64,000 nucleotides of DNA from Fistulifera solaris (Eukaryota > Bacillariophyta > Bacillariophyceae > Naviculales > Stauroneidaceae), in contig AP026164.1 of the NCBI GenBank assembly GCA_030295235.1, forward strand, positions 62,001 through 126,000, read 5' to 3'. The translations under genes and the position numbers were made by a program. Position 1 is the first letter of the stretch. Each line of letters starts with the position of its first letter. The notes beneath the pieces are model-generated. The model made no database searches, had not been told where the DNA came from, and saw nothing but the letters and a program-made list of their open reading frames with translations. Of this stretch, positions 3,591 to 59,598 are shown piece after piece.

Positions 3591-5088
3591 TTACTGATGT
3601 TGGAGTGGCTTGTTCGGGTCACGCTCCATGATATCCTGTACATACTTCAACAGCATAGTGTTGAGTTTCTCTTCCGTATTGAAAACAGGGTTGATTTGAC
3701 CAGGCTTCATGCTTGAACAAAGATGGTTGACATCACGATGCTCGGCTTCATCGGCACGCACCGCGTACATAAGATCAAGTACACTACCGGTCTCGCCTAG
3801 TTTCCAGTAAGCGCGACCAATGGCGGGGGCCAATTGTGTGCGCCATGCTGCCAACTCGGTTCCTTCAGGAGCTTCTTCAATCGCTTGAATGATTTTCGTG
3901 TATGTGGAACAAGCTTCTTCTTCAACATATCCCACAAAGCGATGGCAAAAATGCGGAGAAATCATGTAAGCCAGAAGAAAGACGGAACCGAATCCAAATT
4001 GACCTCCCCACTACGGCAGCGCTAAAGTAATGCAGAAAGTCGCAAAAGAAGATTCGCAAAAGTGAGCACAACGGAATTCATCTCATCAACAAATGAAACC
4101 AGCGCGTTACGAAACATACCGAAACAAGGCATTGGGATTCTTCATGCGTACAAATGTAAGTAAATGCATGCGTTCATTGTTGGCTTCGTCTAGAAACATT
4201 TGAATCATTCCGCCATCCCGTTGCATGGTACGGAGTGACTTGAAGTGACGCACAATAGCGGCAACCATTCCAGGGACAGCGGCGATAGTTTCGAGATAAA
4301 TGGTGCGATTCATGACCTTGGTGGGTGTAATTTCTCCGTTCCAACCGGTCGCTGCATCAAAGCCAAACGCACCCCTTTGACCGCATTGTACGCCAAACGG
4401 TCCACGAAGGTCTCTGGGGGTGTGTGTTTCAATTCAATGTTCCAGTCCATGTTTCCGTGGCTCTTGTAAAACAAGTATTCGTTTCCACAAGAACCCAATT
4501 TGAGGGGATTGCCCGATTCATCCAATTCGACTGTATCACTTTCCTGACGTTGCACGACACGATCGATGGCTTCGATGAAACGATCAAAGGAGACACTTCC
4601 TCCCGATTTTCCGGCGTAGAATAGTTCACCGATTTCGACAATCTCGTCTTCGGTGAAGGCGCTGTTGTGTTTGCGCAGAAGTTGCTTGAGTTCGTCCGTG
4701 TCAATTCTAGGGAGGAGAGAGTGAGGCCGATGCGTGAGAGGAAACAACGCGGGCGTGACGTGAGGCATGTATTCTTGACTTACCGACCGTCGGAATTGCG
4801 ATCTACGGCGTTCAATTCTTTAAGGATGTTTTTCACCGTATCCATATTCAGAACACGAAGCTTCTTTGTCACAGTTCCGGGTGTTTGTACGACGACAGCA
4901 TCGTCCAAGGCAGCCGTGCTGAAGGAATATGAATGACCAGTCAAAGGATTTTTCCATACTTGCTGAAGATAGTTACTGGCTTGACTTCCAATGGCGGAAT
5001 AAATTGCTTTATCATGCCCAGCAGCAGCTGTTACCACAGGACGGAGAAATCGAGGAGCCGAACGACGCAAACTTGTTGCTGCAATCAT
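3591..5088 (-). CDS. AOX: Alternative oxidase with N-terminal EF-hands
   Basis: Mitochondrial ubiquinol oxidase that bypasses complexes III and IV. The start at 5088 gives MIAATSLRRSAPRFLRPVV, a basic mitochondrial presequence; the upstream in-frame TTG is ignored. Exons are 5088-4784, 4706 to about 4116, and 4010-3591. Residues ~85-150 hold a canonical EF-hand loop, DRNSDGRIDTDE, split by intron 1, and a second degenerate loop near YAGKSGGSVSFDRF. The oxidase core keeps the di-iron ligand motifs: YLETIAAVPG, DEANNERMHLL, YVEEEACSTYT and RADEAEHRDVNH. Corrected length is about 438 residues, longer than AOX without the EF-hand region. The reading frame breaks at 4359-4361, where one extra T (minus strand) restores GVRLAFDAATGWN. 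The second intron's donor is uncertain: GTATGT at 4119 is the stronger site but leaves the frame wrong, while GTTTCG at 4115 keeps it. Confidence 0.85.
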
Positions 5089-6498: not shown

Positions 6499-6941
6499 TC
6501 ATCCTTTAAAATCCGTCGACGACAACTTGGATTGACCCGCTAGTATGTTAGAAACTTCCGAAACCGACACTTCGTCGTCCCATGTTGTTACACTGACATC
6601 TCCAAATCGATCGTATACTTGCACTTTAAAAGCACCTTTGAGTTTTCCTTCCGTATTTTCTACAGCGTATAGAATTCGGTAGTTCATTCCGGCAACGACT
6701 TGCTGGAATGATTGAACCACACGAAGATGTAGTTCTGATGCCTTTTGCTATCAAACGAATAACGCTGGTTTTGCAAGGGGAGTTGTGTCTGAACGTATTC
6801 TGTGACACCCTGCAGCATGGGGTTTTCTTCGGGCTTTTCAATTTCACTAAATCCACCCACCATGGCACAGTTCGAAGAGGAAGTAAGGAAGGATAGAATT
6901 AGCGTTACAATATAAAGAAAACGATACCAAAGATTTGTCAT
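6499..6941 (-). CDS. Secreted cystatin-like cysteine protease inhibitor
   Basis: Single-domain cystatin that should inhibit papain-type proteases outside the cell or in the secretory pathway. The ATG at 6941 starts a hydrophobic signal peptide (MTNLWYRFLYIVTLILSFL, likely cleaved after SSSNCA), and the mature part starts MVGGFSEIEKP, which supplies the N-terminal glycine pair of cystatins. The QVVAGMNY motif is the first inhibitory hairpin, and a later TTWDDE may mark the second. A one-base deletion at the T run 6743-6746 (A run on the coding strand) separates the signal peptide half from the QVVAG half; one extra A gives the expected continuation FDSKKASELHLRVV. Corrected length is about 147 residues, normal for a secreted cystatin. 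No introns are needed. Confidence 0.75.
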
Positions 6942-7194
6942 GATGCGTTTGAAAGATGATGAACAATAATATGAAGTTGGAAAGGCAATTTGCAGAGAAT
7001 CCGCAGAATAGCGACACGCGACGCTTGCAACGATCGAATTCGTTCCGAAAGCAAAAATTGTGCGCAGTGTTCTCTTGTCCCTCCAATCCCACATCAGTCC
7101 CGAATACTTTGACCATGACACACAAAGACCTAACTAGGGTCTCTTCCTTTCTTATTATGATTACTTGAACATTAAAACTCAAGATAATTTTACA

Positions 7195-9174: not shown

Positions 9175-10766
9175 ATGCTTTCACAACGAAGGATGCACTC
9201 CATTATAGCGTGTTTATGGGGTGTGAGTCTGACGGCTTTCGTGTACAGTTTTTCGCCGTCACAAATGCACCGCCCCCATCGCCTGCGATCGTCACAATTG
9301 AATGTAGCGAATGCCTTGTCGTTAAATACAACTCCATTTCCATCTTTTGCGGAAGGAATCAAGACACCGAAAGTGGGAGTTCTTTTATTGAATCTAGGAG
9401 GACCGGAAACGAGTGATGATGTTGAAGGTGTGTAAGATATGGTGCTACGTTTTGCTCATCGCAGTCGTTTCGACCCCCCTCACACGTATCCCCTATCATC
9501 ATCTTTTCTGCGCATATCCATAGGCTTCCTGTTCAACTTATTCGCTGATCCTGATATCATTCGATTACCTGCACCACTAGCACCATTGCAAGGCTTCATT
9601 GCCTACTTTATCTCCAAACGTCGTGCTCCGAAAAGTAGGGCAGCCTACGAAAGCATCGGAGGAGGCTCCCCTATTTTAAAGTACAGTAATGCACAGGCTG
9701 ATTTGTTGAAGCAGTCTCTTTCGAAACGATACGGGTTAGATGTAGAGACCTACATTGGTATGAGATATTGGCATCCCTTTACCGAAGAAGCACTCGAACA
9801 AATTCGCAAAGATCAAATTGATGCTCTCGTCATTCTGCCACTCTATCCGCAATTCAGTATCAGTACTTCGGGGAGTTCATTACGAGTCTTGCAAGAGGAA
9901 TTTTCAAAAATGCACCACAATACGGGAATCTAGTTCATACAGTGGTCCCAAGTTGGTACAATCGACCGGGATACGTCAATGCGATGGTCAAGCTCATTCA
10001 AAAGGAGCTTGATTCGTATTCGCCAGAGGAGATTAACGAAGCGCTAGACACCGCGCCCGATCAAAAACCGTTGCATGTTCTCTTTTCGGCACATGGTGTT
10101 CCTAAATCGTACATAGAAGCGGGAGATCCCTATCAGAAACAAATTGTTGATTGCGTCGAACAAATCAAATCAGTTCTGCCCAGTGATAATGTGGAAGTAC
10201 ATCTTTCCTATCAATCGCGCGTCGGACCTATTGAATGGTTGAGACCTTACACGGACGATGTATTACCCGAGCTGGGAGACAAGGGTGTCAAGAACTTGGT
10301 AGTGGTTCCGATCTCGTTCGTGAGCGAACATATTGAAACATTGGAAGAGATTGACATTGAATATCGAGAACTGGCGGAAGAACATGGGATCACAAACTGG
10401 CGGCGGTGTCCAGCGCTTAACACGGATGAGGCTTTCATCACCGATATGGCTGATCTAGTATACGAAGCCCTTCAAGAACCGGCGCAAAGTGTCACAGAAG
10501 CATGTGTCGCCAACAGTGTTTCTGAAATCAGCTTGGAGGATGACATTCGTATGGCTGGCGTGCAAGGAGTTGGTGCGGAAAGCCCTGTTGTGAGTCGTGC
10601 GCGAAGTAGCTTGATGGCTCAACAAACCGGCGGATTGCAATTCACGGAACGCATCACTGCCCGCGTGGCGATTTTGGGTGTCCTCGTGACGGTTTTATTG
10701 GAACTAGTCAATGGGAAATCATTCATGCAAATGGTACAAGGTGGTGGGCTATTTCGGCTCCCATAA
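9175..10766 (+). CDS. hemH: Ferrochelatase with C-terminal LHC-like segment
   Basis: Inserts Fe2+ into protoporphyrin IX to make haem, probably in the plastid. The ATG at 9175 gives a signal peptide ending near VYS with FSPSQ following, an ASAFAP-type site. Exon 1 ends at 9427 (phase 1), the 96 bp intron ends with TAG at 9523, and exon 2 begins [16 protein letters not shown]. Core motifs are [20 protein letters not shown], the catalytic histidine in LFSAHGVP, and [14 protein letters not shown]. The last ~40 residues ([20 protein letters not shown]) match the CAB/LHC-like tail known from cyanobacterial and plant plastid ferrochelatases. The frame breaks at the A run 9906-9910; one more A gives [19 protein letters not shown]. 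Corrected length is about 498 residues. Confidence 0.92.
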
Positions 10767-24525: not shown

Positions 24526-27500
24526 CTACAAGAACTGCATCTGCATGCCCGCTTCGGATTTTTGTGCGCGGTTCAAACGATCTTTGAGACTGATTTCCAT
24601 CTTTTTGAATTCAGCGCTAGGCGTTTCCACAAAACGCTGCTGCGACTCAAGTCCTTCTGTGGGGCTTGTTCAGGCGCGTCGTTTCCGTCTCCCCATTGGT
24701 CGATCTCCTGCTGGAGCAACTTGAGTTTCTGCTTCGCCCGAATGCGTTCTAACGCCGAGTCTTTCGCAGTGCCTTGCTCATTGACCCAGAAGCAATTCAT
24801 TTCGCCTTTGCCTTTTATCGACACCGGTCCACGCGGTTTTAACGGAAGTTCGGGAGCCTGGTCCTTCAAGTACTTTGCTGCTTCCTCACTGCAGTTGATA
24901 CGATTCATAGCCGAGTTACTTTCCATCCGACTGGCGGTGTTGACGGTGTCACCGAACAAGCAATAACGTGGGTTTCGATTCCCAACGACATCCGCCACGA
25001 CGGGGCCCGAGTGAAAGCCAACGCGAATATTCACATGTCCTTTCGAGGGGTCGTCTTCGTCAATAAGAGTCTCGTTGGCGACAGCGACGGCACGAATTGC
25101 AAACTCGGCAATCCGCTTGGCGTGGTCGTGCGTTTGCTTCGAAACGAGATTTGTTACGGCCATGTATGCGTCTCCGATGGTCTCGACCTTGAAGATCTCC
25201 AACTCCTGCGAAAGAGCATCAAATTTGTGATACAAACGATCGAGCATGTTGGCCACTTTCGATGGATCCATTCGAGCACTCATGTCTGTGTATCCTACTA
25301 TGTCAGAGAAAAAGATTGTCACGACATCCTTGTGTTCGGGCTCGACCTTGCGACCGTCTCTCAACGCTTCGGCGACATGCCGCGGGAAAATATCAAACAG
25401 CGACACACGCGAATGTTTTGCGTTCGATGTAGCTGAAGCCGATAAGGCGGCTTCGGCATCAATGCGACGGAGACGCGTGTCGATCTCCTCAAACGTCGGA
25501 CGTTTATCTGGATCATCATCCAAACAATCAGCCATGAGAGCCTTTAACGCGGCTGGCATGTGGCTGGGAGCAGGTGGCCGCTTTCGAATTAAAGGGTCGG
25601 CAACAGCTCGCAAAACATCTCTTGCTGGTTGGCCTTCGTAGGGGTCTCGTCGTGCATATACTTCGTACAGCATGATACCGAAGGAGTAGACGTCTGTTTT
25701 GTCCGTGTTCTTTGACTCTCTTCGCAACAACTCCGGCGCCATCCAAAACGGGGTCCCCGTTCCGCCCATGTTCTTTTTCTGACTAAGACCGAAATCGGCT
25801 ACTTTAGCACGGAAACGAGTGTCAACCAGGATGTTGGCCGCTTTGAGGTCGCCGTGAATGACCTTTGGTTCAGCGGAATGCAAAAACGGACACCCTGCGA
25901 AATGTCGCACAATATTTGCAGTAGAACGTCTCCTTCCAACACCATGGTTTCGTTGTGAAGCAGGTCGTAGAGGGAACCATGATCCATGAATTCCATGACG
26001 AGCATGGGGTCTTCATCTTTTTCCATCACAGCGCCCATGACGGTCGTAATACAGGGATGTCGAAGGCGACTCAAATACCTCATCTCCTCCACAAAGTCTT
26101 CTCGCATTTTGCGGTAATTTTGGTAGTCCGATGCAACACTGTTTTTGCGGGATTTTGCCAAGCCTGAAAGAACTCCTATGTTACTCCAAGATGTTGTGCC
26201 TGAACGAGTTCCTAAACTCGCGAATGTTCCTGAAACACTTCCACGGCCCTGGCCCGAGGTTGTATTTGAGTGATCTTCGGTTGCATCTCCCTGAGTGGCG
26301 CTTGGATCAATTCCGGCGAATGCTTCGGAATCCATATCGAAGACGCTTTTACGAACAGCACTGTCGGCTTTCCCAGACGCACTTTCGGATCCGTGAAACG
26401 AGATCTTGGTTCTTTTCTTCGGCGGGATAGCGCGCTTCACGGCCACTTTTGTGCCACGATATTCTGCCGACAGGACCAAACCGTATTGTCCTCTACCTAG
26501 AATCTCTGGTGGATCGGCAAAGTGCAGCTCGTGTTTTTGCACCCTCCAAACAGAGTCGTTCGATTTTTTCTTGAATTCACGGATTAAGCACCACACCAGA
26601 CTTGCTGCTAATAGCAAGAATGCTGTGGCACCACAGGCAACGCCAATCAGCATACCTGTATTCGCGTCGGGAGGAGGAGCCAAGTCGTTTGGAAGATTCG
26701 TTGTACCGTCGTTGAATATATAATCGCCGCGTACCTGCCACTCGGAATTGTTGAAGACGTGCGTTAGAATTGTGTCGAATTTCTGGTCACCATCTGGTAC
26801 AGCTGGGTCAACAGGAACAGGAATATGATTGGCGACGCGATAGAGAGCTGTTTCCGGCAAACGAGTGCCAGTAACAGGATCAAGCACAACCCGACCACTG
26901 ATTCCATCGAATTCAATTGCCCTAAATTTTTCGTAGTGGAGAGTGCCGTTCAAAAACAGCTCCTCGCTTTCGTTGTTCACAACAGCTTGACAAGCGCTCA
27001 AACCTAAAGCGATTGCCGCTTCGTAAGCGAATGGGGACAACCCATTTGTAACAACTTGGTTCAAGAATGTGGGATCATCTGGCTGCACGAAATCAGGTGG
27101 AGGCAAATCAGGACGAGGCCAAAAATCACGCATGTAGTCCATGTCAATCTCGTTGCGCATTTTGCTCAGTTGTTCCAAGTAGGCATCATATTGTACCATA
27201 CCATTAACACCGCCTGATATTTCAAGGAGACCGACTCCCCTTTTATAATGTTAGCGTGAAGCACACGTACAATTTGAGTTTGACTTTTAAAAAACGTACC
27301 GGTACGCCTTATAAAGTGGCGAATCTTTATCAAAGGTTCGATCCACCAAGACCCCCAAGAAGGAGTCACCAAATATCCAGTTGTGCAAGCCATTCCCTGC
27401 GACGCCCTGATTGTAGGCCTCAAGCAAGAGTTCGTCGTGTGTTTCAACGGTAAAGACCAAGCAAAACACAAATCGAAATCCACTTTGCTTTACGCTTGCC

Positions 27501-28234
27501 ACTGCTGCTTTAATACTTTCTGAATTGTCATCGACTGGTATTTGTTGAATAATCAAATCAGGGACGTACTTTGCTGTTGCTTGTCGCATGCCCTCGACGT
27601 AAGCATTGCCATAAGCATCGTTGATATTGATTACAGCCAAGTGTTTGATTTGAAGTGCATTTCGTAAGTATAGCACTAATGGAACCGCATTACCTGCGTC
27701 TGAAGGTAATGTTCTGCCAAAGAGAGGATACTGACTGCGGTCATCTAGGTCGGCTGATGTCGATCCAGGTGATACTTGCGGGTAACCTAGTAGACCTGTA
27801 ACTATCGCCATGGGCATGCTGACAGCACTACGATACGCACCGATGAATGCGCAGGCTTTTCCCGTTTGCTCTACAACGTGCTTCAAAGCGACTCCGGGAG
27901 TATAGGCGGTATCCGCCGTCATCATAGTGAAGCGGATGGGACATTTCTCGTGCAAACCAGCAACTTGGGGAACGATACTTCCATCTCCTGTGTTCAAATG
28001 TTGGATAGCCAAAGCAACAGAGAAAGCGTCTTCATAAGTCGCTCGATGCGGCAAATCAGTTCCGGTTGTAAACGGTTCGATAACGCTGAGAGGACAAACA
28101 GCGAAAGGTTTCCCTTCCTGAGAAACAAAACGGTCTGCGTTGCTATTTTCAGGTCGATCGAGCGTCGCATTCGATTCGTAGAAAGAATCATAGTAGCGCA
28201 GTGACCACAGTGTTCCTTCGTTAGACTGGGCCAT
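24526..28234 (-). CDS. Receptor-type guanylate cyclase A
   Basis: Predicted membrane receptor making cGMP, about 1,200 residues. Exon 1 is 28234-27300, the intron 27299-27240, exon 2 from 27239 to the end. Residues 1-505 are a type-1 periplasmic/ANF-receptor-like ligand domain (GKACAFIGAYRSAVSMPMA, NINDAYGNAYVEGMR). A membrane segment follows at about 508-531 (GVACGATAFLLLAASLVWCL). The kinase-like domain (about 556-900) keeps VAVK and VADFGLS but has HGDLKAAN where HRD is usual. The class III cyclase domain (about 950-1130) has both metal aspartates (FFSDIVGYT, GDAYMAV) and guanylate-type specificity residues: Glu in KVETIGDAYM, Cys in PRYCLFGDTVN. Frame breaks: A run 25882-25886 (restores VRFLHSAEPKVIHG) and a missing C at 24648 compared with copy B; without repair the stop is at 24573. 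No signal peptide was found at the ATG, so an upstream exon may be missing. Confidence 0.85.
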
Positions 28235-28654
28235 TTGCGACTATTGACGATTGATGATGACGAAGAAAGTGTTTGAGAGAAAATGAAGAGAAATGTGTTG
28301 TTATTTGTTTCTTGTCGCTGGAAAACGAACAAACGTCCGTGAAAGCACGAGACACTAATAGATCGGACGATAGATGTGGGGCGAAAGGCTAAAATGCACT
28401 TCACAGTCATAGTCATAAATAACAAACAACGAACAATAACTATTGTCAATACTACAATAAAATTAATACTCGATGTCTGCAGTCATTTGTCATTTTCGTG
28501 GTACATTCTACACCATCTATTTTGTATCAGTCTTATATTGGTCGTCACCAGTCACCAGTAGTCCAATGGTCCTTGGTCCTTGGTCTTTGGCACTTGGTTC
28601 TCTTTATTGGTTCTTACTTTGTAGTAGTAGGTTAGCGGCTGCACTCATGCGTGA

Positions 28655-30172: not shown

Positions 30173-33100
30173 TTACAAGAACTGCATCTGCATGCCCGCT
30201 TCGGATTTTTGTGCGCGGTTCAAACGATCTTTGAGACTGATTTCCATCTTTTTGAATTCAGCGCTAGGCGTTTCCACAAAGCGCTGCTGCGACTCCAAGT
30301 CCTTCTGTGGGGCTTGTTCAGGCGCGTCGTTTCCGTCTCCCCATTGGTCGATCTCCTGCTGGAGCAACTTGAGTTTCTGCTTCGCCCGAATGCGTTCTAA
30401 CGCCGAGTCTTTAGCAGTGCCTTGCTCATTGACCCAGAAGCAGTTCATTTCGCCTTTGCCTTTTATCGACACCGGTCCACGCGGTTTTAACGGAAGTTCG
30501 GGAGCCTGGTCCTTCAAGTACTTTGCTGCTTCCTCACTGCAGTTGATACGATTCATAGCCGAGTTACTTTCCATCCGACTGGCGGTGTTGACGGTGTCAC
30601 CGAACAAGCAATAACGTGGGTTTCGATTCCCAACGACATCCGCCACGACGGGGCCCGAGTGAAAGCCAACGCGAATATTCACATGTCCTTTCGAGGGGTC
30701 GTCTTCGTCAATAAGAGTCTCGTTGGCGACAGCGACGGCACGAATTGCAAACTCGGCAATCCGCTTGGCGTGGTCGTGCGTTTGCTTCGAAACGAGATTT
30801 GTTACGGCCATGTATGCGTCTCCGATGGTCTCGACCTTGAAGATCTCCAACTCCTGCGAAAGAGCATCAAATTTGTGATACAAACGATCGAGCATGTTGG
30901 CCACTTTCGATGGATCCATTCGAGCACTCATGTCTGTGTATCCTACTATGTCAGAGAAAAAGATTGTCACGACATCCTTGTGTTCGGGCTCGACCTTGCG
31001 ACCGTCTCTCAACGCTTCGGCGACATGCCGCGGGAAAATATCAAACAGCGACACACGCGAATGTTTTGCGTTCGATGTAGCTGAAGCCGATAAGGCGGCT
31101 TCGGCATCAATGCGACGGAGACGCGTGTCGATCTCCTCAAACGTCGGACGTTTATCTGGATCATCATCCAAACAATCAGCCATGAGAGCCTTTAACGCGG
31201 CTGGCATGTGGCTGGGAGCAGGTGGCCGCTTTCGAATTAAAGGGTCGGCAACAGCTCGCAAAACATCTCTTGCTGGTTGGCCTTCGTAGGGGTCTCGTCG
31301 TGCATATACTTCGTACAGCATGATACCGAAGGAGTAGACGTCCGTTTTGTCGGTGTTCTTTGACTCTCTTCGCAACAACTCCGGCGCCATCCAAAACGGG
31401 GTCCCCGTTCCGCCCATGTTCTTTTTCTGACTAAGACCGAAATCGGCTACTTTAGCACGGAAACGAGTGTCAACCAGGATGTTGGCCGCTTTGAGGTCGC
31501 CGTGAATGACCTTTGGTTCAGCGGAGTGCAAAAGCGCACACCCTGCGAAATGTCGCACAATATTTGCAGTAGAACGTCTCCTTCCAACACCATGGTTTCG
31601 TTGTGAAGCAGGTCGTAGAGGGAGCCATGATCCATGAATTCCATGACGAGCATGGGGTCTTCATCTTTTTCCATCACAGCGCCCATGACGGTCGTAATAC
31701 AGGGATGTCGAAGGCGACTCAAATACCGCATTTCCTCCACAAAGTCTTCTCGCATTTTGCGGTAATTTTGGTAGTCCGATGCAACACTGTTTTTCCGATA
31801 TTTTGTTAAGCCGGACAAACTTCCAACATTGCTCCAAGACGTTGTTCCAGATTGTGTACCAGAATTATTGGTGCCTGGGCCCGAACTTGTTCCCGAATGG
31901 TCTTCCGTTGCATCACCGTTTGTACTACTAGGATCATTGCCAACTAAAGGCTCGGAATCCACATCAAACAAGCTCTTGCGTGCTGCCTCGCTGGCTTTTC
32001 CCGATGAGCTCCCTGAACCATGGTTTGGTTTCTTGGCCTTTTTCTTCGGCGGGATAGCGCGCTTCACGGCCACTTTTGTGCCACGGTATTCAGCCGACAA
32101 GACCAAACCAAATTGGCCTCTACCTAAAATCTCTGGTGGATCGGCAAAGTGTAACTCATGCTTTTGCACCCTCCAAACAGAGTCATTCGATTTTCGCTTG
32201 TGTTCGCGAATAAGACACCACACCAGGCTTGCCGCCAATAGGAGAAAGGCCGTTGCACCGCAAGCAACACCAATCAGCATACCTGTATTCTCGTCAGGTG
32301 GAGGAGCTACATCGACAGGAAGATTCGTTGTACCGTCGTTAAAAATGTATTCGCCACGCGTCTGCCATTCGGAATCAACAAATACGTGCGTCAAAACCGT
32401 GTCAAATTTGTGGTCGCCTTCCGGTGCGCTGTTATCAGTGGGAACGGGGATAAAGTTTACGACACGATAGAGTGCTGTTTCTGGCAAACGTGTGCCAGTT
32501 GAAGGATCAAGCACGACCCGGCCGCTGATTCCATCAAACTCTGTTTTCTTGAACATCTCATAGTGCTGCGTACCGTTCAAGAACATGTCTTTACTTTCAT
32601 CATTTTCAAACGACTGACAAGCACTCAAGCCCAACGCAATCGCCGCTTCATAAGCAAATGGCGCAAATCCGTTTGTAACGACTTTGTTCAAGAAGGTCGG
32701 ATCATTTGGCCGTACGAAATCAGGTGGATCTAAATCGGGACGAGGCCAAAGACTACGCAAGTAGTCCATATCAACTTCGTTGCGCATTTGGCTTAATTGA
32801 GCTATGAAAATATCAAACTTTTGCATTCCACTAACACCGCCTGACAGTTCAAGTAGACCAACACCTCTAATTAAAACAAAATGAGTTTCTCCGTTGTTAG
32901 TGTCGTGCGATGCCCGGACAGAAACTCGGCTCATCGTTCATAGAGAGCAATTACTCACCTGTATGCTAAAGAGAGAGGCGAATCTTTTCAAATATCCGAT
33001 CATCCAAGACACCAAGGAATGAGTCTCCGAAAATCCAATTGTGCAAGCCATTTCCAGCAACTCCCTGATTATAAGCTTCCGTCAAAAGCGCATCGTGCAT

Positions 33101-33902
33101 TTCAATGTCAAAGACCAAGCAAAATACAAATCGAAACCCACTCCGTTTGATGCTCGCAACCGCAGCTTGAATGCTTGCTGCGTTCTCATCCACCGTAATT
33201 TGCTGAATGATTAGATCTGGTGTGTACTCGACGGCTGCTTGTCGCATGCCGTCCACGTAGGGAGTTTCCGTACGAGTCGTTGATGTTGACCACAACCAAC
33301 GAAGTCATCTGCAATACATTTCGTAAATACAGTACCAGCGGAACAGTGTTTCCGGCATCGGAAGGTACAGTCCTTCCAAAGAGAGGATACTGACTACGAT
33401 CATCTAAATCCGTTGACGTAGATGCTGAACTGACTTGAGGATAACCAAGTAGGCCTGAAACAATAGCCATGGGCATGCTGACCGCACTGCGATATTCACC
33501 GATGAAAGCGCAGGCTTTTCCAGATTGATCTACGACGTGCTTCAAGGCGTTACCTCCCGAGTCGGCGCTGTCCGCCGTCATCATAGTGAATCGAATGGGG
33601 CATTTCTCGTGCAAACCGGTAACTTGAGGAACGATGCTTCCGTCTCCTGTATTCAAATGTTGGATAGCTAGTGCGATCGAAACAGCATCTTCGTACACTC
33701 CTCGAAAAGGAATATCGTCTCCTGTTGTAAAAGGCTCGACGAAGCTAAGAGGACAAATGGCGAAAGGCTCCCCTTCCTCGGAAACAAAACGATCGACATT
33801 GCTGTTTTCAGGTCGATCGAAAGTTGAGTTTGATTCGTAGAATGAATCGTAATAACGAAGTGACCAGAGCGTGCCTTTGTCAGCTTCGGTCATGTTAGAC
33901 AA
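30173..33902 (-). CDS. Receptor-type guanylate cyclase B (tandem paralogue)
   Basis: Second receptor guanylate cyclase, same strand and domain order as copy A. Exon 1 is 33902-32959, the intron 32958-32867 (92 bp), exon 2 32866-30173. The ligand domain differs from A at many positions (for example IGEYRSAVSMPMAIV, VNINDSYGNS), and the linker before the kinase differs too. From about 31795 down to the stop the DNA is nearly identical to A. The kinase keeps VAVK and DFG with HGDLKAAN; the cyclase keeps Asp pairs plus the guanylate-type Glu and Cys. Frame breaks: one C too many at 33260-33262, one base short at 32985-32988 (restores FEKDSPLSLAYR), and one short at 31530-31533 (restores VRFLHSAEPK). 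The last differs in run length from A but sits at the same codon. The C-terminus ends SEAGMQMQFL. No signal peptide is visible. Confidence 0.85.
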
Positions 33903-35368
33903 TTCTTGAGGTCGTATTTGTGCGTCAAAGAATGAAGTCGAAAGGTAGGCGAGAGGCGCAACAATGGGGATAAAGTTGAAAGTTGAATGCGACGGATTTC
34001 AAATAAATGCAATGCAAATTGATCGGGCGGAGTTTTTCGCAAAATGCAAGGCCCTGGTACTGCGAGCGTCACTGTACTGGGACGAGAAAAAGAGATGGAC
34101 GACGGAAAACGGAGAGAACGGAGATCCGAAGTCCGTGAATGATCATCATCGGCTAAATACGATCTGTACTTATTATACCATTGTAGAGAATTATGAATTA
34201 TTGTCTGCAAATTCGAAAGACCGAAGACCGAGACCAAGCGAATAGCAGAAGTAAGAAAGTATAGTTCGACACGCTCTAAAATAACAAATAACGAATATCG
34301 ATATTCATGTTATAATAACGTATTATATCAGAGCCATTTTTCCCAATATCGATATTTATCGATATTCGTACGCCTGACAGACGGATTTGTGGCATTTTAC
34401 GCTAAAATGGCTGTATTTTGCGGGCGAAGACAGACGGTCCCCGATATTAATATCGGTTATTATATCGTATAATACGATATTGATATTCGTAGAAATCGAA
34501 ATATCATGACTTACGGCTTCATAGTAGTCGTAGCGACAGAAGACAAAGAGGAGAAGGGAGAATAGGGCCTATGTTTTTGGTCGAGCAAGGCATTCAGGGT
34601 CAGACGTCGCGATGTCCCCCCTGCAAGGAAGACAGGCATGCTGGATGCCGGCTGCAGGTTGCACAACAGTACCAGGTAAAGAGAGCAAAAGACTGCGCAA
34701 TGCGCTGTGGGCGTGGCCGTGGCGCCTGATTTTAAGCGTCCATTAAGCCATTCGGGCTTGTTCTTTTTAAGAACGGACATTCAAAATTCAAACATTGAAC
34801 ACTCTCCTTGTTGCTTGTTGGGTCTGCGGCCTGGTCCCTGGTCATCAATTGTCTGTCAATCGTCAGACGTGAGGAGTCGTCGGGGTGGATCGACTCCTCT
34901 AAACCAAACGGATCGTCCCTAAACGTTATCTTGTCTTCTTCGGCCTTTAGAGACTTGACTATGAAGCTATATCTTGAAAAGCGTAATGTCGCTTGACTAT
35001 GATCCTCGAGTTGTCAATGAAGCAAACCGCAGCCTCGAGCCGCAGACCACCGTGGTAATGGTTATTCTTTTGTAGCTACTCAGTAAAAAAAGTAAATCGA
35101 GTCACGAGTCACTAGCAAAAACAAATTCAGTTGAGCGAGTCGTCAGTCGTTAGTCATGCAGGAGCGTTCACAGAGTTGCAACGCAGAAATCTAACAATCG
35201 AACTGATTGCAAATGCTTTCATTGAAATCGGTTCATTCGGGCTACTAGTTGCGATTTGCAATCAATTTCTTTGTTCGATGTGTTGGTAGAGAAAGCTGAC
35301 GCTAGACGAAATATCTTTCATATTTAACTTAACAAAAGACACTATCATCATCCCAACAACAAAAACGC
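33903..35368. other. Intergenic with AT-rich palindrome cluster
   Basis: About 1.5 kb between cyclase B and the heat shock factor, with no recognised gene. It contains the AT-rich inverted-repeat block at 34285-34500 (listed separately). Confidence 0.45.
34285..34500. repeat. AT-rich terminal inverted repeat, MITE-like
   Basis: About 215 bp bounded by CGAATATCGATATT (from about 34292) and its near-inverse ATATTGATATTCG (ending about 34490). Both ends also contain TTATAATAAC/GTTATTATA and further ATATCGATAT palindromes. An internal pair CAATATCGATATTTATCGATA is near 34345. The GC-richer centre carries GGCATTTTACGCTAAAATGGC. Shape and size fit a small inverted-repeat element; no duplicated target was confirmed. 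Confidence 0.55.
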
Positions 35369-52500: not shown

Positions 52501-55500
52501 GGGATTCTTTCGAAAGAAGTTGAACTACCAGGGGGGGAGTGGACAATGCAGATTGAATTTTTAGAGCCTGGATTCAACTTAGAAAGATTGATTTTAACGT
52601 TGATGGAAGAAATCGAAACTGAACCGCCGATAAGTGACATGCCAACGATGGTTCCGTCCGCTATATCACTCAGCTCCGCACCATCCGTAGAATCCCTCTT
52701 TAATGTTATGATTTCCGCCGTCGACTACAGCGATATGATTGGTATTGAAGTTCAAGATATGGCCAATGGAGAACCCTATGTTGGGTTCATAGATCCTGGT
52801 GATTCTCTCTCATACGAGCTGACACTCCCTACACGAGGAATATATTCGATGCAATTAAGGGTCGCCACACCACTGGGGGGAAGGAAGGATAGCCATCTCA
52901 GACAAGAATACGACGGAGGACTACGGCATCGTGACCAATTTCCCGCCGACGGGCGACTGGAACACCTTTGAGATGTTTTCGACAGAGCTTGAGCTTCCAG
53001 GTGGAGCATGGACAATGCAAATGGAGTTTCTCGAAGGAGGCTTCAACTTAGAGATGTTAGGCCTTACACTACTCCAAGTAATCGAAACAGATCCCCCGAC
53101 AGTAGCGCCGTCGATAGCGCCCACTGCTGAGCCTCTCTTCCGTCTCACGATCCCTGCTGTGAACTTTACGTACATGGAAGGAATTGCAGTGCAGGAAACA
53201 GCTGAGGGACAAACTTTCGTGGGGTATATCGACGCAGGCGATTCTATTGCTTACAATTTGAACCTTCCAGCACGTGGAATTTATTCGATCCAATTAAGGG
53301 TCGCTACACCACTGGGCGAAGGAAGAATAGCACTTTCCGACTGGGAAACGTTTCTTGATTATGGCATGATAAGGGACTTTTCGTCGACAGGCGACTGGAA
53401 CACTTTTGAGATGTTTTCGACAGAGCTTGAGCTTCCCGGTGGAGTATGGACCATGCTAATGGATTTCCTGGAAGGTGGCTTCAACTTCCAAATGCTAAGT
53501 CTCACACTACTCCAGATCGTTGAGACAGATCCTCCGACAATAGCACCATCGCTAGCGCCAACGGTGGAGCCTCTCTTCCGCCTCACCATCCCTGCTGTGA
53601 ACTTTACGTTTATGGAAGGTATCGCCGTGCAGGAATCAGCCGAGGGAGATACGTTTGTCGGATATATTGACCCCGGTGACTCTGTGGCTTACGCTTTAAA
53701 ACTACCAACACGAGGAATATATTCGATGCAATTAAGGGTCGCCACACCACTGGGCACAGGGCGAATTGCGATCTCAGACCTTGATACGATGGAGGCCTAC
53801 GGATTAGTAAGCGAATTTCCGCCAACAGGAGACTGGGACACCTTCGAGCTGTTTTCGACAGAGCTTGAGCTTCCAGGTGGAGCATGGACAATGCAAATGG
53901 AGTTTCTCAAAGGAGGCTTCAACTTAGAGATGTTAGGCCTTACACTACTCCAAGTAATCGAAACAGATCCCCCGACAGTAGCGCCGTCGATAGCGCCCAC
54001 TGCTGAGCCTCTCTTCCGTCTCACGATCCCTGCTGTGAACTTTACATACATGGAGGGTATTGCAGTACAAGAAACAGTTGAGGGAGAGACTTTTGTGGGA
54101 TATATTGACGCCGGCGACTCTGTTGCTTACGATTTGAACCTTCCAGCACGAGGAATATATTCCATTCAACTGCTTGTTGCGAGTCCTTTAGGCTCGGGGC
54201 AAATTGCAATCTCCGATTGGGAAACCTTTCAAGAGTACGGACTTTTGACTGCATTTCCTGCAAGTGGCGATTGGAACAATTTCTTATTGTTAACGGCAGA
54301 GCTTGAGCTTCCGGGTGGTGTATGGACTATGCAAATGGAATTTGTAGAGGCTGGTTTTAATTTCCAGGCGATTGGTCTCACATTGCTTAAAATTATTGGG
54401 ACAAGTCCGCCAAATATGTCACCTACTACATCGTCGGCGCCTAACGCTTCACCCACTTCGCCTGTAACGTTTGACCTTCTAATACCAGCTGCTAGCTACT
54501 TGTACATGGAAGGAGTGACAGTTCAAAACTCTTCGGAAGGCACTGCGTTCCTTGCTGGGTTGGACACTGGTGACTCTGTTGCATATGCTGTGTCGATTCC
54601 AGCTAGTGGATTGTACAAGCTTCAAGCAAGTGTGGGAAGTCTTGTTGGTGATGGTAAATTTGTCGTCGCCAATTGGGTAACATTTGAAGAATACGCGTTC
54701 ATTGATGAGTTACCATCTACGGGAGATTTGTCACAGTTTGATCTTGTTACAACAGATTTTGATCTTCCTAAGGGCCCCTTGATCATACAGATAGAGGTCA
54801 TTGAACCTGGCTTCTCTCTTGAATCGTTGAGATTTTCCAGCACCGAGGCTCAGACCACCACCCCTATCGAGACGATACAGCCCTCGGGAAATTTCACTTA
54901 CGATCCGACTGAAATACCTACCGAAGTTCCGACGCAAATTCCATTGTTTTCTCTTGAGATTCCTGCCGTGAACTTCACCTACATGGACGGCATTTCTATT
55001 GAAGAAACGACCGAAGGAGTCCCATTTGTTGGATACATCGATCTAGGAGATAGCGTGTCATATTCTGTTTTGTTACCATTCGCTGGTTCTTACAGACTGC
55101 AATTGAACGTTGCAAGCCCTGAGGGCACAGGTCAAATGAAGATTTCTAACTGGGAAACATTTGAAGACTATGGAATGATAGGTAATTTTCCGGCCACCGC
55201 CGATTGGGTAACCTATGAAAAAGCATTCACTGACTTGGAACTTCCCGGTGGGGAACTAATTCTTCATTTTGAAGTAGTGGAGCCTGGTTTTAATCTGGAG
55301 TCCCTGGTCATCTCATTGCTCGAAGCAATCCAAACCCTTGCCCCTTCAGAATCCGGCAGCAATCCTCCTCTCTTTTATATCGATATTCCTGTTGAGGACT
55401 TTTTGTACTTCGAGAATGTGGAAGTTTTAAATTTCGAAGGAGAACCATACCTCGGCTCTTTAGCGCCAGGTAGTTCTGTAGCTTATTCTGTCGAACTTCC

Positions 55501-56595
55501 GTCAGCCGGTGCGTATAAGCTCCACTCGGGCGTCGGTAGTCCTGATGGCAAGGGGCATTTGGCGTTTCGAATTGGGAAACGTGGACTGAATATGCTTTCA
55601 TCAACAACCTTCCGGCGACTGGAAGCTTGACTTCATGGGAAACGGTTTCTACCGATCTAAGTCTTCCGGCAGGAGATATCATACTGCAGATTGAAATATA
55701 CGAAGGTGGATTTACCTTACAATCATTAGCGCTTGAGCTGACAGAAGATTTGGAGACAAATGTTCCGATCGGCCCAATCGAGACCAAAGCTCCAATAGGA
55801 CCTGGTGAGAGCCTAAGCCCAACTCGAAGCCCAATAGGCTTTAATGAAACCATGTCGCCGACCGGCCCCGAACCGAATCCGGAAACAGCGGTCCCAACTG
55901 TAACCCAGACAGAAGCTCCTGAGTTTTTCCTCTTTATTCCTGCACCAAACTATACGTCTTCGAATGGTGACTTTGGTTTAGAGACTGCCGAAGACGGAAC
56001 TCAAAATGTTGCTTTTCTTGATCCTGGAGACTGGCTTGGCTATGACATATCTCTGCCATATGAAGGGCGGTACAAACTGGAAGCCAACATAGCGAGCCAA
56101 GCTGGTAATGGTTCGTTCGTTGTGACGAATGTCGAAACCCAAGAAGAGTACGCGTTTGTAGACAATCTCCCTGTTACAGGTGACTGGAACGTGTACGAGT
56201 CCACAACAACAGAAGTAACTCTTCCGGACGGAGATTTCACTTTGCAAATTTTTATTGTTGAATCAGGCTTTAATATACGATGGTTCTCCTTGGAGCTTCT
56301 TGAAGCCACTGGAGGGGGCGGAGGAGGATCGTCGAAATCATCCTCATCCTCGAAAAAATCTAAGAAGTCAAAGAAATCGAAGAAATCAAAGTCATCGTCG
56401 TCGTCCACAGAGAGCAGTGGCAAAGCATCTAAGAAAGTAAGCAGTGGCAAAGCATCGAAGAATGTAAGCAGCGACACACAGAGCAGCGGCAAAGCATCTA
56501 AACAAACAAGTAGTGGCAAAGCATCCAAAAAGGGCTCAGTGGCTTCCCGCCAGTTGAAAAAAAAATCAAGGCGACGGAGTTTTGCAAACAGGTAG
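49501..56595 (+). CDS. Giant secreted CBM6-like repeat protein, Ser/Lys-rich tail
   Basis: About 2,360 residues after correction. The ATG at 49501 gives a plausible signal peptide (MRNMMMKRLLPIALSILRV); an in-frame ATG at 49396 would bury it. About 15 CBM6-like repeats of ~125-155 residues follow, separated by Pro/Thr/Ser linkers (DPPTVAPSIAPTAEPLF). Typical strands are IPAVNFTYMEGIAVQE, GYIDAGDSVAYDLNLPARGI, GDWNTFEMFSTELELPGG and MQMEFLEGGFNLEMLGLTLL. The last ~95 residues are Gly, then Ser/Lys-rich (KKSKKSKKSKKSKSSSSS, then SGKASKK-type units), reminiscent of lysine-rich biosilica proteins. Frame breaks: T run 50847-50852 and G run 55552-55555 are one short; G runs 51530-51535 and 52875-52880 are one longer than the intact copy at 51969-51973. 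No enzyme domain was seen. A cell-wall, mucilage or adhesion role is inferred. Confidence 0.75.
51360..53150 (+). repeat. Near-identical internal repeat units
   Basis: Three units of the giant gene begin with GACTAC(A/G)(A)CGA(C/T)ATGATTGGTATTG at about 51379, 51817 and 52723, and stay almost identical for about 400 bp, through GTAGCGCCGTCGATAGCGCCC. A differently evolved unit (52225-52690) separates the second from the third. Such identity among older, diverged neighbours points to recent duplication or conversion. Confidence 0.85.
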
Positions 56596-56782: not shown

Positions 56783-59598
56783 TCAAATAGCGTAATTGGG
56801 GTGAACGGCAAGAGGTGTGTTTGCTTCTTCCTGCCTGTTACCTGGCATGGGCCCAACGGTGACGAGGACGTGATCGGTATTGACGAGTCGTCGTAAAACA
56901 AGGTTAACCTTCTTCCTCGTAGCTTCCAAGGCCTCAACAGAATCGCCTAGATCCGATTCGACCTGTCTTAAATACCACTCTACTACATCCTTCCATTTCC
57001 AGTAAACTGGGTCACCTTCGTCGTCGTCTGACTCCAACGATCTCAGCTGCGTCGCTATCATATGCGCGATAGCCTCGTACTCTTCAAACGAGATCTTTGT
57101 CTTTTTCTTCTCTCTCCTAGAACGAGACTGTTCCGTGGGTTCGTACTCGCCTGGTCTTTGAGATTCCGCTTCGTCCCCGTGAAGTGGCGCATCCTCGGGA
57201 TTATCTTCCCCATCATCGTCGCCACCATTGCCATGTTCATCACCTTCGTCTACCGCGACATCCGACGTCTCTACCCTCAAAATGCTGGTTTTTAGTAAGC
57301 GAAATGCTTTGTTCACATAGTCGGGTTGGATTTCAGAATCACAATGTAACCGCGCCAATGCTTCGGATAGCCGAATCAACGACTCTAGCTGACGCACAGT
57401 AATACGATACGCTGAGCGACTGGCACCCAGACTATCACTTTGACGTAGTCTTCGATAGCAATCCACCAGAACGCGCTGAGAAGCCGGCGTAATCTTCGGA
57501 TGAATGGTCCGAGCAAAACGAATGTAGCGTTGGATTTGCTCCATCGTATAAGGTGCCGTGACGAGCGTTTCTTTGCACCTATGAACGTTCAAGATGTGTT
57601 GCGCAACGCGACGGTCGGTTGCTGGATTGCAATCATCCAGAACGACAAAGAACAAGTCGAAACGAGAAAGAATCGGTGCACTGAGCGCGACATTTGCGCT
57701 CAAAGTCTTGCTGCGATCGTATCTTCCGTACACAGGATTGGCAGCCGCAAGGATGCTAGCCCTGGCGTTCAAAGTTGCCTGAATACCTGCTTTAGTGATA
57801 CTGATCGTCTGTTGTTCCATAGCCTCATGGATAGCCACCTGATCGGACGGATCCATCTTATCAAACTCGTCAATGCAACAGATTCCATTGTCAGCAAGAA
57901 GCAATGCACCAGCCTCAATGCCATATTCTCCCGTATCCGAGTCTCTCTGAACAGCCGCCGTTAAACCTGCTGCACTACTTGCCTTTCCCACACAGTAGAC
58001 GCTGCGATTACTAAAGGCGTGCACATACTTGAGAAACTGTGACTTGGCAGTGCTGGGGTCTCCCACAATGCAAAGATTAATATCACCACGGAGCTTCAAG
58101 CCATCCGGAGCCGTCTTGTGCACACCTCCCAGTAGTTGCAATAGAATTCCTTTCTTAATCTCGAGATGACCTGCTGTATTGGGACAGATGGACTGCGCCA
58201 ATAGCTCGTACAAATTCGGCGTACTACGCATATCGCGTATTTCTTGTCGTTGCTGCGGAGTGAGTTCCAATACGACCTGCTCGGGAGTATCTTCTTGCGG
58301 CTCTACTCCATTGACCCAGAGGTTGACTTTGTTGCTTTTTTCGGAAGCACCGAGAATACTGCTCACTAAGAAGCACGTACGATACGTCAATTCCTTGACA
58401 CCAATGGCTTGCAATCCCCGCACACCCGTACTGTCGGTATTTTGATTGGAAATACTGCGCGGAGCTTCTCCCGCTCGAGCCAGTGCCCCACCATCGGGAA
58501 TGACGACCCAACTTCCCGTGAGTATGACCGTATCACCCGCCTTGCAGCGCTCGACCATTTCGCCGCGGCAAAAGACATCCATACTACGTGGCATGCTTCC
58601 GGGGGTATCTCATGACTCAATTCTTGGACTCGCAACTTTTGCCAATCGACAAATTCCGACATGCTGGTTTCTAATGTAAAGTGCCGCTTGTTTTTACAAC
58701 GAGGATTGCGACAGCGCGTAGGACGTGTGTAATGGAATTGTTGTTGAATGGCTTGTGAAACCAGCCCGCAGTCTTGACAGCGAAAGACTCCTTGCAAGAG
58801 TTCGGGACGAACTTCACTACTGCGTGTGACGGTTCCTTTGACACTGACCAGGCTTCCAATTTGTTCCATGCGCAAATGACGCAATTTTCCGAGAACGGGT
58901 AAATCATGAATGGCGACAAAGAAACTCTTGTGCGTATGCAATTCGGGATGTTGATAATGAATAAATTGCGTCAATCCTTTGCGAAGAAAGGGCTCGAAAC
59001 GAATGAATTCAGCTTGTACAGCCTCCGCTAGATCATAATCGTGTCGTTGCAAATGGGAGAAATCAATCAATAACGTATACACGAGTTGATTTTGATTTCC
59101 CCGATCTTCATCGGTTTCCTGTTCTAAGAGTTTGCGGGCAATCCGTGACGCTTGATCGACGTAAGGATAGTATTGTGTTTCTTCGTAATCACCATCCGCA
59201 GTCTCGACTGTCGTCTGTTCCGAACTATATAAATAAAGAAGGAAAAGAATGAGTGAGTGAGAAAAGGAAAAGGAAATCCTATACATGCATGCATGCATGT
59301 ATGCATGAATGAATGAATACGGAGTCAATGACACCAATGACACTTACAAAGTATCAAGAAACGCCATGAATCGTTCTTTCACAATTTCACCATTCGGATC
59401 CGTGACTTCCGGTTCTACAACAACCGCTTCATCGGCTTCGCGTCGTTCGGGTTGCGGCATGGCCGCTACTTCCGCCATCGCTTCTGCTTGCTCTCGTGTC
59501 GGAATCGCGGCAGCTCCTTCTTCTTCTTCTTCTCCTCCTCCTCCTCTTCCTCCTGTTTCATTCTCTTCTTGCGTACGTACAGACGCCACTGAAGCCAT
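56783..59598 (-). CDS. MCM6: DNA replication licensing factor MCM6
   Basis: Subunit of the MCM2-7 replicative helicase. Exon 1 is 59598-59348, the intron 59347-59225 (123 bp, containing an ATGC microsatellite), exon 2 59224-56783; about 897 residues. The N-terminal part has an acidic Glu/Gly-rich stretch, then the MCM OB domain with a zinc motif (CQDC...CRNPRC) and FVDWQKLRVQE, typical of MCM6. The AAA+ core shows Walker A GDPSTAKSQF, Walker B CIDEFDKM and the arginine finger in LSRFDLFF, with SICPNTAGHLEIKKGILLQL ahead. The C-terminal winged-helix region follows an acidic linker. A one-base deletion in the G run 58601-58605 breaks the frame; one more base gives HEIPPGSMPRSMDVFCRGEM. A replication gene this conserved is very unlikely to be dead. 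Confidence 0.95.
59225..59347 (-). repeat. MCM6 intron with ATGC/GAAT microsatellite
   Basis: The intron contains CATGCATGCATGCATGTATGCATG followed by GAAT repeats at about 59283-59320. The donor is GTAAGTG and the acceptor TATATAG. Confidence 0.75.

Follow-up and report, generated by a model that had tools for sequence, protein, structure and literature searches.

An alternative oxidase gene of the diatom Fistulifera solaris carrying an N-terminal EF-hand pair, with predicted control by matrix calcium

Plant alternative oxidase (AOX) is controlled by thiols and keto acids and fungal AOX by nucleotides; on the side of the dehydrogenases, plant NDB-type NAD(P)H dehydrogenases carry EF-hands. 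In diatoms, AOX is an outlet for excess reductant, and a role of the enzyme in the energy exchange between plastid and mitochondrion is said to have been described by Bailleul in 2015 and by Murik in 2019. Calcium control in alternative respiration, at the level of the type II NAD(P)H dehydrogenases, is described in an earlier report (PMC4587368), an EF-hand in the regulatory domain of a diatom KEA3-type antiporter in a second one (PMC11314055), and the use of calcium-dependent signalling by diatoms in a third (PMC13187674). Fistulifera solaris itself, according to passages of a further source, is an allodiploid diatom that offers two apt homoeologues (PMC13276009). Here, we describe an AOX gene of this species in which an EF-hand pair precedes the catalytic core, and we compare it with its homoeologue, with AOX loci of other origins and with the calcium-controlled systems named above.

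The AOX gene and its EF-hand pair

The window analyzed in this study is a stretch of 64,000 nucleotides of F. solaris DNA, corresponding to bases 62001-126000 of contig C4 in a genome of 51.7 Mb assembled in 61 contigs. Among the guide-RNA targets published for the two apt homoeologues of F. solaris (PMC13276009), the one searched for was present exactly twice in this genome, on C38 and C39, and its reversed control was absent, in agreement with an origin from this species or a very near relative. It contains, on its minus strand, a real AOX gene made of three exons [Table 1]. The limits assigned to this gene by a sequence-only reading of the same DNA proved right, its ATG starting at 5088 and its stop codon ending at 3591; this ATG is also the first one in the open frame of exon 1. 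Judging from the translation, approximately 194 residues lie ahead of the common AOX core and are made up of a presequence-like stretch, the EF-hand pair and a linker. The N-terminus looks mitochondrial, as predicted from its composition.

Table 1 Features of the AOX gene, in window coordinates
Feature	Position	Strand	Remarks
AOX gene with N-terminal EF-hand pair	3591..5088	minus	Three exons; splice sites and exon limits; C3 homoeologue alike
Exon 1, 305 nt: presequence and first half of EF-hand 1 loop	4784..5088	minus	Split codon CG/A at its end
Intron 1, 77 nt, GT-AG, inside the EF-hand 1 calcium loop	4707..4783	minus	75 nt in C3
Exon 2, 587 nt: remainder of EF pair, linker, first half of AOX core	4120..4706	minus	One-base frame slip near 4362
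Intron 2, 98 nt, GT-AG	4022..4119	minus	100 nt in C3
Exon 3, 431 nt: remaining half of AOX core, with the C-terminus	3591..4021	minus	One-base frame slip near 4006; Pfam AOX E 9.1e-34
Probable mitochondrial presequence, approximately aa 1-60	4909..5088	minus	First 20 residues: four Arg, no acidic residue; dN/dS 0.30 between homoeologues (aa 1-79)
EF-hand pair, aa 80-152, with intron 1 in between	4556..4851	minus	Pfam and PDB matches; 12 synonymous, 0 nonsynonymous differences (72 of 73 codons)
Canonical loop, part 1, DRNSDG(R), aa 96-102	4784..4803	minus	Exon 1 side
Canonical loop, part 2, (R)IDTDE, aa 102-107	4691..4706	minus	Exon 2 side
Second EF-hand loop AGKSGGSVSFDR, aa 133-144	4580..4615	minus	Positions 1 and 12 lack calcium ligands
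Linker, aa 153-194, one Cys (C175)	4430..4555	minus	aa 153-190: 6 synonymous, 0 nonsynonymous differences

The calcium loop of the first EF-hand, DRNSDGRIDTDE (aa 96-107), is complete only once the transcript is spliced, intron 1 cutting its Arg codon; reading through this intron leads to an immediate stop in the unspliced frame. The spliced loop meets the canonical 12-residue pattern, with ligands at positions 1, 3, 5, 9 and 12 and a Gly at position 6 (D96, N98, D100, G101, D104 and E107). When the N-terminal 216 residues were shuffled 20,000 times, a PROSITE-type EF-hand pattern arose by chance in 20 of the shuffled sequences. An EF-hand with full calcium ligands followed by a degenerate second hand, as anticipated by the sequence-only reading, was recovered: DRNSDGRIDTDE forms across a GT-AG intron, and the ligand-poor hand 2 comes after it, the acidic ligands being absent from positions 1 and 12 of its loop, AGKSGGSVSFDR.

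Searches of the PDB with phmmer, using an 89-residue region encompassing the EF-hands as the query, returned troponin C (E 1.3e-9 for the whole sequence; best single stretch 7.8e-5, spanning both hands), CaBP1 (E 2.5e-9) and the mitochondrial SCaMC-1 (E 6.4e-5). The two EF-hands are paired, the troponin C alignment spanning both of them and the loop of hand 2 being located where the last hand of troponin C is aligned. EFCAB6, which stood at the top of the PDB list (5.6e-11), was dropped, its score being the sum of many weak repeats of which none was significant singly. In Pfam, the spliced N-terminus matched five EF-hand models (EF-hand_5, EF-hand_7, EF-hand_6, EF-hand_1 and EF-hand_8), the first four with significant E-values and all five under the curated cut-offs. 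EF-hand_5 (E 8.3e-6) came just under its gathering cut-off with 25.5 bits versus 25.9, and EF-hand_7 (E 3.4e-5) clearly under its own with 24.5 bits versus 30. Because of these scores, automatic annotation may overlook the EF-hands of this gene. We conclude that the EF-hand pair is genuine and that it and the AOX core are parts of a single gene.

The core itself was recognized by Pfam PF01786 in two pieces (E 2e-30 and 9.1e-34; 106.5 and 117.4 bits versus a cut-off of 22.7). Each of the two pieces also matched solved mitochondrial AOX structures in the PDB with an E-value of approximately 1e-20 (entries 3vv9, 9kun and 9m2a, which we take to be trypanosome AOX). The iron-binding motifs of AOX, LET, NERMH, EEEA and DEAEH, which provide the ligands of the di-iron center, were all present and aligned to the solved mitochondrial enzymes.

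Two further observations were made along the window. The single Cys of the linker, C175 (4487-4489, minus strand), is a possible second control site; it lies at what is presumably about the position of the regulatory Cys of plant AOX, and 15 of 73 prokaryotic AOX frames have any Cys in the stretch corresponding to this region. Outside the AOX gene, the window harbors a small protein gene with a QVVAG motif and a weak cystatin match (6499-6960, minus; E 0.0008, under the cut-off), a ferrochelatase-like frame (9822-10766, plus) with a one-base gap relative to contig C3 near 9911, and long repetitive frames between 49339 and 56595 (plus), one of which (52859-55630) has five matches to carbohydrate-binding module family 6. 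Tandem receptor-type genes occupy 24573-28240 and 30173-33998 (minus), with an ANF receptor-like ligand-binding part, a kinase part and a guanylate-cyclase part identified by Pfam in the first copy, the one searched; further copies of the receptor-type guanylate-cyclase genes are found on C3.

Homoeologous copies, constraint and frame slips

A search of the F. solaris genome with the N-terminal region yielded two copies and no third. The second copy is the homoeologue of the AOX gene on contig C3, which lies in collinear surroundings and displays an identical exon layout, identical splice sites and the same fusion. An additional stretch of approximately 2 kb of near-identical repeat units is present downstream of this homoeologue (C3, ~65.5-67.5 kb) and absent after the window copy. 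The existence of the second copy bears on the joining of exons 1 and 2, a junction predicted from DNA alone, so that exon 1 could in principle stem from another gene and the EF-hand arise by chance upon its joining to exon 2. We find such an artefact scarcely credible, for only this join completes the EF loop, the rest of the EF pair is encoded by exon 2 itself, and the GT-AG sites are kept in both copies despite intron lengths of 77 versus 75 nt.

The two homoeologues were compared over 438 of 441 codons, piecewise between one-base length differences, with the one codon of the EF pair that touches the slip of the C3 copy excluded from the counts. Over the 72 codons of the EF pair, 12 synonymous and no nonsynonymous differences were counted. 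The corresponding figures were 39 synonymous and 3 nonsynonymous differences (path-averaged), with two amino-acid changes, for the core (aa 191-440), and 10.5 synonymous and 10.5 nonsynonymous differences, with nine amino-acid changes and a dN/dS of 0.30, for aa 1-79. By these counts, conservation of the EF pair is no less strict than that of the catalytic core, and the presequence drifts. The EF pair appears to be under strong purifying selection between the gene copies, two homoeologues being few for such a test. That it has undergone no amino-acid change against 12 synonymous differences supports the existence of a functional EF-hand domain on AOX, and this constraint, as read from codon differences, speaks more strongly than any other evidence for EF-hands that are translated with AOX and matter.

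Constraint by itself cannot tell sensing from structure, and a domain in which one loop of two has ligands, hand 2 being ligand-free, also fits a structural role. The EF-hand pair could then be real and serve to stabilize the AOX dimer or to dock the enzyme to a respiratory or import component, with calcium (or magnesium) bound constantly or never. All of the canonical ligand positions of hand 1 are intact in both copies, however, and we consider this purely structural role to be a possible but unlikely one.

Neither of the assembled AOX copies is open throughout. The window copy undergoes one-base frame changes near 4362 and near 4006, leaving its core readable in pieces only; the C3 homoeologue has an intact frame at the equivalents of both positions but slips once at another site, in the EF-hand exon. 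The claim that one spliced frame leads from the EF pair through the complete AOX core was accordingly upheld with regard to the core motifs, all of which are present, but not with regard to the frame, which is interrupted as assembled; a single spliced frame holds only if both slips of the window copy are assembly errors. Comparison of the window region with its homoeologue revealed 60 one-base gaps flanked by well-conserved sequence; base runs account for 30 of these gaps, and 26 lie inside or border on frames of at least 200 aa. This count is approximate, as some of the alignments are between tandem copies rather than homoeologues. One gap listed at 3592, beside the stop codon of the AOX gene, is an effect of the diverged flank, the C3 alignment showing the stop to be intact. 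Among the other genes of the window, an MCM6-like helicase gene (56783-59343, minus) consists of two overlapping frames, of which the first was searched with Pfam; they are split at a one-base gap (58604) relative to the homoeologous contig, which indicates small errors in the assembly. Since one-base gaps are frequent along the region and one of them breaks the MCM6-like gene, the slips in the AOX copies are likelier to be assembly errors than marks of decay.

The same slips, two in the window copy and one in the C3 copy, are what a pseudogene decaying in both subgenomes would display, in which case the fusion would be devoid of any living function. Codons past each slip nevertheless still differ almost only synonymously, and the 60 one-base gaps of the region, including the break in the MCM6-like gene, point to assembly error instead. 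We therefore hold decay to be very improbable; even when it is taken together with a mis-spliced or wrongly joined exon 1, the combined probability stays low.

Occurrence of EF-hands among AOX loci

Prokaryotic and virus-labelled AOX loci were gathered from genome and viral contigs by two-row alignment (best 80 of at least 566 and best 80 of at least 535 confirmed matches). Three of these 160 loci were dropped because their core was unreadable, and none of the 157 readable AOX frames from these best matches was found to contain an EF loop in a scan of single frames, a procedure that intron-split loops escape, including the split loop of the window AOX gene. Likewise, the combined EF-AOX arrangement was found neither in viral contigs queried with exon 2 nor in genome contigs queried with one piece of a core exon. 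A model built from 77 prokaryotic AOX frames matched the F. solaris protein from aa 195 only, weakly between aa 195 and 216 (E 0.007) and strongly in the core. Given that the prokaryotic model aligns from aa 195 only and that an EF loop occurs in none of the 157 frames, the EF module is, on the strength of this comparison, an addition to AOX.

Within the F. solaris genome, a scan of 13 NDH-2, AOX-like and AOX loci for EF loops, from which split loops again escape, revealed none. Two further AOX-like gene pairs, perhaps including plastid terminal oxidases, are located on contigs C11/C12 and C23/C24. No Pfam EF-hand was detected at an E-value of 0.1 or less at the three of these four other AOX-like loci that were scanned, nor at the three scanned of seven NDH-2-like loci, in one frame each.

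The literature on AOX in combination with EF-hands or calcium, and on AOX in diatoms, was surveyed by title, beginning of the abstract and passages, and no EF-hand AOX was described among the papers listed. Judged by these listings and passages, this outcome is consistent with the remark, made from the sequence, that no AOX with EF-hands is known. It is quite possible that the architecture is widespread in diatoms or has already been recorded.

Predicted calcium control and comparison with known systems

Taken as a whole, the above results lead us to propose that the AOX of F. solaris is a mitochondrial enzyme that is probably controlled by matrix calcium via putative binding to its EF-hand module. 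The EF-hand module of this ubiquinol oxidase follows the presequence and precedes the catalytic core. In the proposed scheme, import followed by cleavage would leave the module in the matrix, because the N-terminus of AOX is on the matrix side of the membrane according to structural work on the enzyme. Matrix calcium would bind to hand 1, with the ligand-free hand 2 serving as its structural partner, and the EF module would shift against the N-terminal arm and the dimer interface of AOX, thereby conveying a conformational signal. Higher matrix calcium would most likely result in more quinol oxidation, that is, in activation and not inhibition, and the calcium signal would open an electron overflow in replacement of, or beside, control by thiols and keto acids and by nucleotides.

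The broader proposition is that of a terminal oxidase sensing matrix calcium directly, in this diatom lineage, through an EF-hand switch of its own, such that calcium transients would open a non-proton-pumping outlet for electrons and bring mitochondrial respiration under the influence of plastid and stress signals; the case for it is, in our opinion, evenly balanced. If a calcium-binding module is indeed fused to AOX, the calcium signalling of diatoms would be linked straight to respiratory overflow.

Among the systems to which the window AOX may be compared, the solved mitochondrial AOX enzymes (3vv9, 9kun and 9m2a) share its core and motifs; their chains, of 271 to 329 aa, are absent from the 42 PDB chains matching the EF-hand region. 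Prokaryotic AOX has the core in common, the match running from aa 195 on; unlike the window AOX, the readable frames of the prokaryotic and virus-labelled best matches are devoid of the EF loop in the single-frame scan. SCaMC-type carriers provide the case of an EF-hand module, similar in sequence to that of the window AOX, borne by a mitochondrial carrier; unlike AOX, they are transporters, and their EF domain faces the intermembrane space. The diatom KEA3-type antiporter, an ion antiporter with no relation to AOX, sets a precedent, as far as the passages of its description go, for an EF-hand on a regulator of energy metabolism in a diatom. The plant NDB-type dehydrogenases are a different enzyme and respond to calcium on the external side, whereas the module of the window AOX would probably lie on the matrix side; the two are alike in principle, in that calcium acts on an enzyme of alternative respiration, and for AOX this control is a predicted one.
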